A stretch of DNA of 64,000 nt from Acidobacteriota bacterium. GTDB lineage: Bacteria; Acidobacteriota; UBA890; WLXD01. This document shows, piece by piece, positions 26,302-46,870 of this stretch. The stretch covers positions 453,984 to 517,983 of the forward strand of contig WLXD01000003.1 of NCBI GenBank assembly GCA_012103255.1, written 5' to 3'. The position numbers and the translations under genes are program-made. Each line of letters begins with the position of its first letter. The stretch's first letter is position 1. The notes beneath the pieces are model-generated. The model worked only from the letters and a program-made list of their open reading frames with translations, ran no database searches and was not told the DNA's origin.

Positions 26302-27231
26302 CTACTTCTCGACGACGAGGAGCGCAGACATGACCTCGCGCTCGATCTGGGCGCCAAGCGGCCGGTTCACGAGCACGCCATCCACGACGAGCGTACTCGA
26401 ACCGCCACCGTCCAGGTTCACCGCCTCATCCACGCCGAGCTCAAGCATGATGTTCGCCAGCTCCAGGAGATCCACGCCCCGGCTCTCGCGCTGCCGGCCA
26501 TCGATCACCACGAGAACCAGGTCGCCCTCTGGAGTCACGCCGGCCGCCGTTCGCGGGTTGAGTTCCGGAATGGCAGTTCCGAAGAAGACCTCCGCGTCCG
26601 TGGCCACGTGGATCTGACCGTCCATCACGAGCACGGGGCCCGCCGCCAAAGCATCGTGGGCCGGCCATACCTTGAGTTCATCAAAATCGAGCCCTGTAAC
26701 CGGAAGCTCCGCGGCGTTGGGCGGCGGCGACACCCACTCGTAGAGCACGCCATCGCGACTCGACACCCAGGCGACGTCGGCCTGTCCGCCCGGCAGGAAA
26801 CCCAGGGCGCCGCGGGCGAGGAAGTACCGCTCGCCGTCACGGAGCACCGAGTCCATCGCGGGCTCGATGATCTCGCCGTCGACCATCAGCAGGCCAACAT
26901 GCCTCATCGGCGACTCGCCCATGCGGAAGTAGCCCCCGTTGAGGACGACGCGGGCGTCGCTCTGTTCGGCAAACTCCGAACCGATCTCCACACCATCCGT
27001 GTCGGTCGACGCCGCGACTCTGACGCCGAGCTCCGGCGATGCTTCGATCCTCACTGACCACGCTCGCAGCGGCGCTTCAGGGTCTGTGCCGGAGTACACG
27101 CGGATGGTCTCGGGCAATGACGCATTGAGAGCCTCCACTGGCTCCCACTGCACCATGAGTGGCGCGGGCGCAGTCTCGGCGCAGGCTATGATTATGAGCA
27201 GCAGCGCCACGACACCGACTCCGCGCTTCAC
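26302..27231 (-). CDS. phosphodiester glycosidase (NAGPA-domain) lipoprotein
   Basis: 309 residues from a GTG that overlaps the Nudix stop (GTGA). A lipobox (I-I-I-A-C, Cys17) makes it a lipoprotein. The domain is PF09992-like: N-G-G-Y-F-R-M near residue 97, G-P-V-L-V-M-D-G, and the diagnostic E-A-V-N-L-D-G-G-G-S-S-T-L-V near residue 275. Relatives cleave N-acetylglucosamine-1-phosphodiesters or related glycan phosphodiesters in the envelope. The link to peptidoglycan or capsule is an inference. Confidence 0.88.
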   Translation of the reverse strand: MKRGVGVVALLLIIIACAETAPAPLMVQWEPVEALNASLPETIRVYSGTDPEAPLRAWSVRIEASPELGVRVAASTDTDGVEIGSEFAEQSDARVVLNGGYFRMGESPMRHVGLLMVDGEIIEPAMDSVLRDGERYFLARGALGFLPGGQADVAWVSSRDGVLYEWVSPPPNAAELPVTGLDFDELKVWPAHDALAAGPVLVMDGQIHVATDAEVFFGTAIPELNPRTAAGVTPEGDLVLVVIDGRQRESRGVDLLELANIMLELGVDEAVNLDGGGSSTLVVDGVLVNRPLGAQIEREVMSALLVVEK

Positions 27232-27809
27232 GCTCGACTCTCGGCTTCGCGCAGCAAGGCGAGGTAGTGGAATGCGGCGACGACCAGGGCGTGGTCAATC
27301 GTTCCGGCCCGGATCATTGCGCTGATATCTGCCAACGGCACCAGCCGGACGGCGATTTCCTCATGCTCTTCGAGGGCGGTAGGCCCGGTGATAGCGGCGC
27401 CGCGAACCAACACGGTGTGGCACCGATTGTTCAGCAACGCTGGGTTAGGCGCGACACTACCGATCGACAAGAAATCGTCCGATCCATAGCCCGTCTCTTC
27501 CAGCAATTCGCGCACGCCGGCGGCCACGGGATCCTCGCCGGGATCGACCATTCCGCCTGGAATCTCCAGGGTCACTGCGTTGGTGCCATGCCGAAACTGC
27601 TCGATGAGCACGACCTCGTCGGCTTCGGTCAACGCGATCACGTTCACCCAGTCGGCCGAGTCGAGATAGACGAACTCACCAGGGTTCTCGGGATGTGCAG
27701 GAGAGGCCGCTCGCCGGCGACGGAGCGTGAAGATGCGCGTCTCGGCGACCACCTGGTCGCCCAGCTCGCGCCATGCCGGCACCATCGAACCGAGTGGCGC
27801 GTCACTCAA
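27228..27809 (-). CDS. NUDIX hydrolase, ADP-ribose pyrophosphatase type
   Basis: 193 residues from a TTG that overlaps the end of the AhpD-like gene by 8 bases. The Nudix box is complete: G-G-M-V-D-P-G-E-D-P then R-E-L-L-E-E-T-G-Y (G-x5-E-x7-R-E-x2-E-E-x-G). The upstream V-L-I-E-Q-F-R-H-G and downstream H-T-V-L-V match ADP-ribose/GDP-mannose pyrophosphatases (NudF/YffH). It hydrolyses nucleoside-diphosphate-linked compounds to a monophosphate and a phosphate ester with Mg2+. Substrate is not decidable from sequence. Confidence 0.9.
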   Translation of the reverse strand: MSDAPLGSMVPAWRELGDQVVAETRIFTLRRRRAASPAHPENPGEFVYLDSADWVNVIALTEADEVVLIEQFRHGTNAVTLEIPGGMVDPGEDPVAAGVRELLEETGYGSDDFLSIGSVAPNPALLNNRCHTVLVRGAAITGPTALEEHEEIAVRLVPLADISAMIRAGTIDHALVVAAFHYLALLREAESRA

Positions 27810-28344
27810 GAGTCACTCCGAGTCCATCGGCAATTCGGTTGACGTACGCGTAGTAGGCGGCAACCTCGGCGATCGCGAGAATGTCCGCGTCCTCGAAACC
27901 CGTGTCGCGAAGGCCTCCAACATCGTCCGAGGTCATGTCCGCCGGCGTCAACGTGAGCTTCTCGGCGTACTCCAACATCGCCAGCCGACGAGGATCGAGC
28001 CCGGCAGTGCGGTAGTCCTCGACAATGCGATCCACAAGCGCGTCGTCGCGAAGTTTCCGGCGCAGACCGCGCCGGTGATGGGTCATTCAGTAGTGACATG
28101 CGTTCAGCTGTGAAACGACCACAGCGATCATCTCGCGCTCGGCGCCCCGCAGCGTGGGGGTACCTCGCATTACCGCCGAATAAAGGTCCTGATGTGCTCG
28201 GAGGCCCGCGGGGTGGAGCGAATGAACCTGCAGCACATGGTCGAGCTTGCCGGACACCGGGTCGCGGACTTCCTCGTACAGCTCCGCCAGCGCCGGATCG
28301 GCATCCTCTTCTGCGACTGTGCGGATCCAGGCGGGTTTCGACAT
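27802..28344 (-). CDS. AhpD-like (carboxymuconolactone decarboxylase family) peroxidase, predicted selenoprotein with in-frame TGA
   Basis: One continuous frame of 180 residues interrupted only by TGA at 28087-28089. Reading TGA as selenocysteine gives N-A-C83-H-Y-U86-M-T-H-H90, matching the AhpD relay motif E-x11-C-x2-C-x3-H (Glu71, Cys83, U86, His90). Sequence on both sides belongs to the 'uncharacterised peroxidase-related enzyme' branch: S-Q-L-N-A-C-H-Y before, H-H-R-R-G-L-R-R-K-L-R-D-D-A-L-V after. A perfect hairpin follows the TGA at SECIS spacing. Such proteins are thiol-dependent (hydro)peroxidase partners; CxxU would be more nucleophilic. Read conventionally, two useless fragments result (85 and 94 residues), the second starting at the ATG right after TGA. 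Alternatives: a base error for TGC/TGT or a nonsense mutation. First gene of a run with Nudix and NAGPA genes; GGAAGA precedes the ATG. Confidence 0.75.
28057..28075 (-). promoter_or_regulatory. candidate bacterial SECIS hairpin
   Basis: In the mRNA, CCGGCGC and GCGCCGG form a perfect 7-bp stem closing a 5-nt loop GGUCU. Counting U of UGA as 1, the stem starts at 15 and the loop occupies 22-26, with G23 and U24 in the loop. From memory, the E. coli fdhF SECIS has GGUCUG at the same positions and SelB contacts G23 and U24. The bulged U17 of fdhF is absent here. The hairpin is within the coding region, as in other bacteria. No selA, selB or selC gene is in the window. Confidence 0.6.
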
Positions 28345-46691: not shown

Positions 46692-46870
46692 CCGACCCCG
46701 AAGGGCCGGTGACGGTCTCCTGGCTTACGGATCGTCCTACTAGCCGTCGCCTTCCCAGGTCACCCCCGGTGGCGTTCCGGGCCTCGCGGCCCTCGGACGG
46801 TGTTCGTCCCCGTTCACAGTTGCGGGGCAGCGCGGGATTCACACCCGCTTCCCGTTTTGAAACGTGGCCC
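46692..46870 (-). ncRNA. cobalamin riboswitch controlling btuDCF
   Basis: On the minus strand the conserved core reads GGGTGTGAATCCCGC, then CTGCCCCGCAACTGTGA, and ends in the B12 box GCCAGGAGACC (46714-46724). Directly after it, CCGGCCC and GGGTCGG (46692-46709) form a 7-bp hairpin with a UUCG loop. GGTCTCC next to the btuD ATG (46644-46650) is an exact complement of GGAGACC in the B12 box, perhaps part of the switching. No T tract, so control is probably at translation. When B12 is abundant the switch should reduce btuDCF expression. Confidence 0.92.

Follow-up and report, generated by a model that had tools for sequence, protein, structure and literature searches.

The window, the whole 64,000-nucleotide stretch analyzed here, encodes on its reverse strand what is, with a probability of about 0.96, a 180-residue selenoprotein of the AhpD-fold, "peroxidase-related" type; as read from the sequence, it would have a Cys83-His-Tyr-Sec86 active site, with selenocysteine (Sec) delivered via SelB and a hairpin at UGA-86. 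The original prediction that this gene encodes a selenoprotein is strongly supported by conservation of the TGA among homologs, by the Sec machinery of the genome, and by a bacterial SECIS (bSECIS) hairpin. The gene looks broken by a stop and is new to annotation; routine annotation would split or truncate it, and the enzyme would thus be missed. It is a well-supported addition to an already known type of selenoprotein and will not surprise a specialist; the finding is useful for annotation and leaves the picture of selenoprotein biology unchanged.

An AhpD-Like Gene with an In-Frame TGA

The reverse-strand frame, read from 28344 to 27802, begins with an ATG preceded by GGAAGA and ends with a TGA, and the only other stop among its 180 codons is the TGA of codon 86, exactly where it had been predicted (Table 1). 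As had also been claimed, this TGA occupies the place of the required Cys in the motif E-x11-C-x2-C-x3-H (Glu71, Cys83, residue 86, and His90), both flanks are good family sequence, and the gene is cleanly embedded, its 3' end overlapping the TTG start of a Nudix hydrolase gene.

Table 1. Positions in the window of the predicted selenoprotein gene, its recoding elements, and the genes that follow it
Feature	Position	Strand	Basis
Predicted AhpD-like (TIGR01926) selenoprotein gene, 180 residues with Sec86	27802..28344	-	Open frame with a single TGA; profile matches; PDB relative 3c1l
Predicted Sec-encoding TGA, codon 86, second position of CxxU	28087..28089	-	TGA at the same codon in homologs
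Predicted bSECIS hairpin, stem CCGGCGC / GCGCCGG, apical loop GGUCU	28057..28075	-	Fold; covariation; likeness to fdhF; published constraints
Nudix hydrolase gene, TTG start, 8-nt overlap with the end of the AhpD-like gene	27228..27809	-	NUDIX, 56.6 bits
Phosphodiester glycosidase (NAGPA-domain) gene, next after Nudix	26302..27231	-	Same order in a near relative (L018)

The read-through protein is a member of TIGR01926 (peroxidase-related, AhpD fold), scoring 143.5 bits against a cut-off of 81.8; the match covers residues 5 through 177 (model positions 1 through 173 of 178) and so lies on either side of the TGA. It also matches Pfam CMD (46.1 bits). Two related models were rejected: the protein scores 17.4 bits against AhpD sensu stricto (TIGR00777; curated cut-off, 191.95) and 47.1 bits against NF041238, AhpD_rel_CFYUT (curated cut-off, 175). 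The latter AhpD-related (seleno)protein has CxxU and a related domain, as does the window protein, but is longer, and only its C-terminal part matches.

The active-site pattern E-x11-C-x2-[C/U]-x3-H is present, and in an alignment of 27 homologous sequences Glu71, Cys83, position 86, and His90 are invariant and Tyr85 is nearly so. The matching family sequence on both sides of the TGA, the retention of the TGA in homologs, and these invariant residues together show that the frame is not open by chance.

The closest solved relatives are 3c1l (Mlr4105; E = 1.1e-29), 2pfx, and 6k40. The structure predicted for the read-through protein (pLDDT 96) has the same fold as these TIGR01926-type structures (TM ∼0.9) and the same site spacing, with 31 to 34% identity over the structural alignment; they are of the Cys type, having Cys-x-x-Cys where the window protein would have Sec. 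The structure search also returned AhpD of Streptococcus pneumoniae (TM 0.84), the debrominase Bmp8 (TM 0.79), and sestrins. AhpD of Mycobacterium tuberculosis, which works via Glu118, Cys130, His132, Cys133, and His137 (PMC3141380), is a weak structural match (TM 0.5 to 0.6; E ∼0.1) but shares the E-x11-C-x2-C-x3-H proton-relay site (Glu71, Cys83, Tyr85, and residue 86 as predicted Sec, with His90, in the window protein). The window protein has Tyr85 for His132; in PA0269, too, Tyr replaces His132 (PMC3141380).

AhpD-like selenoproteins have been described since 2006 to 2008 (PMC1794560, PMC2398784), and the statement in the original prediction that CxxU members had been predicted from marine metagenomes is borne out by "AhpD-like 1" in one such survey (PMC2398784). 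In a 2026 review, TIGR01926 appears among the CxxU selenoprotein families, in a row with MCB9421940.1 (PMC13188914). By the curated cut-off the window protein falls in this same family (TIGR01926 / COG2128), with CxxU and Sec predicted for the second Cys; it differs from the known members in its organism, in a gene order of its own with Nudix, and in a GGUCU-loop hairpin common to its sub-group. In the literature searched, which takes in few subscription papers, no report names the gene in this organism.

The TGA Is Conserved among Homologs

Whether homologs carry Cys or TGA at this site had been proposed as a check. Among 34 homologous loci in our genome collection, 24 have TGA at the equivalent of codon 86, 8 have Cys, 1 has Ser, and 1 has lost the motif. 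By their record titles, the TGA carriers comprise Acidobacteriota, Planctomycetota, Acidimicrobiia, KSB1, Halanaerobiaceae, Natroniella, Deltaproteobacteria, Nitrospinota, Gemmatimonadota, Dehalococcoidia/Chloroflexi, and Myxococcales. The in-frame UGA is thus aligned both with the Cys of homologs and with the UGA of other species, the alignment that marks a selenoprotein.

Closer to the window, the same codon is TGA in two independent genomes of the same genus and in one of the same family. The gene occurs in eight of the nine genomes of the class, both other same-genus genomes included, and each copy has one TGA. A survey of 396 genomes of the phylum found matches in 88, with 105 copies, of which 95 have one in-frame TGA and 10 have no stop (in-frame stops were counted, the exact codon being read only in fetched loci). 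In the phylum, the Sec form far exceeds the Cys form (∼95 versus 10 copies).

Multiple copies were seen at two loci. A Dehalococcoidia metagenome-assembled genome (L040, 696 through 3285) has four CxxU AhpD-like motifs within ∼2.6 kb on one strand, as though a selenoprotein gene had been amplified in tandem, and another locus (L041) has two copies of the motif.

A Covarying Hairpin Follows the TGA

A hairpin with a 7-bp stem starts 11 nt downstream of the UGA, and its GGUCU loop lies at 18 nt (−15.1 kcal/mol). The bacterial SECIS model asks for a loop of 3 to 9 nt with G in its first two positions, a stem of 4 to 16 bp, a spacing of 16 to 37 nt, and a minimum free energy of at most −7.5 kcal/mol (PMC13188914). 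A bSECIS search after the TGA had been suggested, and the hairpin satisfies all of these published constraints, with covarying synonymous positions in addition. Both its GGUCU loop and its 18-nt spacing are those of the fdhF element of Escherichia coli, which was located in 5388 genomes; given the identical loop, E. coli SelB may accept the window hairpin. Of the 1578 TGA triplets in the window, codon 86 of the AhpD-like gene is the only one with GGTCT at +18. Among homologs, a qualifying hairpin (≤ −7.5 kcal/mol) follows 46 of 47 TGA copies versus 3 of 8 Cys copies.

The same hairpin is found in 11 distinct homologs of the HRR type. With stem columns numbered from 0 at the first base after the UGA, columns 14 and 26, both third positions of Arg codons, pair in 11 of these 11 sequences, as G-C, C-G, G-U, or A-U (permutation P = 0.006, relatedness ignored). 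In 34 homologs of the HG/HA type, a G or C in the Gly/Ala codon (column 13) covaries with C or G at a synonymous Leu position (column 23; counts 20/0/4/8, P = 5e-5, relatedness ignored). The Cys copies mostly lack the covarying stem pairs. With this covariation at synonymous sites, the hairpin offers programs that predict selenoproteins a clear case on which to be tested.

The folding energy says less. A shuffle test of the minimum energy gave z of about −1.5, 5 of 120 synonymous shuffles of the window hairpin fold as stably, and the mean z under synonymous-codon shuffling is −1.06 for the 47 TGA copies versus −0.62 for the 8 Cys copies. A hairpin only moderately more stable than its shuffles is expected in GC-rich coding DNA, where stability by itself is weak evidence of a SECIS element. 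As the shuffle tests are not decisive, we set stability aside in favor of covariation and loop position.

Selenocysteine Machinery in the Genome

The genome containing the window (4.81 Mb in 9 contigs, 95% complete) has all four of selA, selB, selC, and selD, for which a search had been recommended: tRNA-Sec (65.9 bits; anticodon UCA), SelB with its C-terminal part (346 bits), SelA (534 bits), and SelD (330 bits). SelD has an in-frame TGA of its own, in a GGU-A motif (L053; G000:C2:892635-893561), and the formate dehydrogenase alpha subunit, FdhA, is a full-length match with one in-frame TGA (L087; G000:C2:686254-688293). Both are known selenoprotein families; counted with them, the AhpD-like gene brings the selenoprotein candidates in this genome to at least three.

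Across genomes, gene and tRNA go together. In the class, the AhpD-like gene and tRNA-Sec occur together in eight of the nine genomes, the ninth having neither. In the phylum, tRNA-Sec was found in 237 of the 396 genomes: in 72 of the 81 with a TGA copy versus 165 of the 315 others (Fisher P = 3e-10, uncorrected for kinship; the search filters were strict, and some tRNAs may be missed). It was not found by these filters in nine genomes with a TGA copy, some of them incomplete.

Proposed Mechanism and Alternative Readings

From the machinery and the hairpin, we infer that SelB carrying Sec-tRNA(Sec), with its UCA anticodon, would bind the hairpin after the UGA, so that Sec would be inserted at UGA-86 in place of termination. 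Sec86 would then sit at the place of Cys133 of AhpD, beside the proton-relay set Glu71, Tyr85, and His90. By analogy with the family, Sec86 would most likely be the attacking selenolate in hydroperoxide or disulfide reduction, with Cys83 resolving, and the biochemical role would be that of a selenol/thiol peroxidase or disulfide reductase.

The original prediction had named as its main alternative a sequencing error or a real nonsense mutation, and had pointed to four indels elsewhere. On this reading a Cys codon became TGA, through a recent mutation or a fault in the reads or the assembly, and left a broken Cys-type AhpD homolog. Of the four indels, the one that was checked, a frame change in the adjacent, divergently oriented S9 peptidase gene (+ strand, ∼30222 through 30225), was confirmed against an intact 641-residue relative in L018. 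Whether it is a real frameshift or an indel introduced in assembly, it shows that the assembly or the genome is not free of lesions. Caution on this score was fair, but the S9 frameshift leaves the TGA site untouched. A lesion at codon 86 would have to have arisen at the same codon in two same-genus genomes, one same-family genome, and 24 homologs of many phyla, in a gene strongly conserved on both flanks, followed immediately by a covarying hairpin, and in a genome with complete Sec machinery. Conservation of the TGA thus led us to reject the ideas that the stop arose by chance, that it is a read error, and that the gene is a pseudogene, and the probability of this alternative is negligible. 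Near-cognate readthrough is known in bacteria, and the UGA might accordingly be read as Trp, or as Cys by near-cognate decoding, or might end a functional truncated protein, with no selenium involved. UGA is, however, also the true stop of this same gene, a protein ending there would lack the second active-site residue and His90 along with half the fold, and a hairpin of the SECIS model follows the UGA in a genome that decodes Sec; this reading is very improbable.

A reading that keeps the selenoprotein but gives it a reaction other than peroxide reduction, such as a Bmp8-like reductive step or disulfide reduction for a partner, deserves more weight, though we think it unlikely. It draws on the matches to Bmp8, an AhpD-fold debrominase, and to sestrins alongside folds named as peroxidases, on the low score against the AhpD subfamily model, and on the closest solved relatives, which carry only the names "putative antioxidant" or "peroxidase-related". 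Against it, the full AhpD proton-relay set (Glu, Cys, Tyr, predicted Sec, and His) is present, and M. tuberculosis AhpD, with such a site, has peroxidase activity, albeit with His132 where Tyr85 stands (PMC3141380).

Neighboring Genes

The predicted selenoprotein gene is the first of a run in which the Nudix hydrolase gene starts within its last codons. Nudix is in the same position in three relatives (G007, G008, and G006); the TTGAGTGAC overlap is kept in the two of the same genus, and in the same-family relative the Nudix position is conserved. This arrangement raises the rather improbable idea that the selenoprotein and Nudix genes are translationally coupled, such that selenium supply, through termination versus Sec insertion at UGA-86, might set the level of Nudix and possibly that of the next gene; if so, the coupled pair would be a selenium-gated operon. 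Elsewhere in the window, a cobalamin riboswitch lies at 46700 through 46888 on the reverse strand (77 bits).
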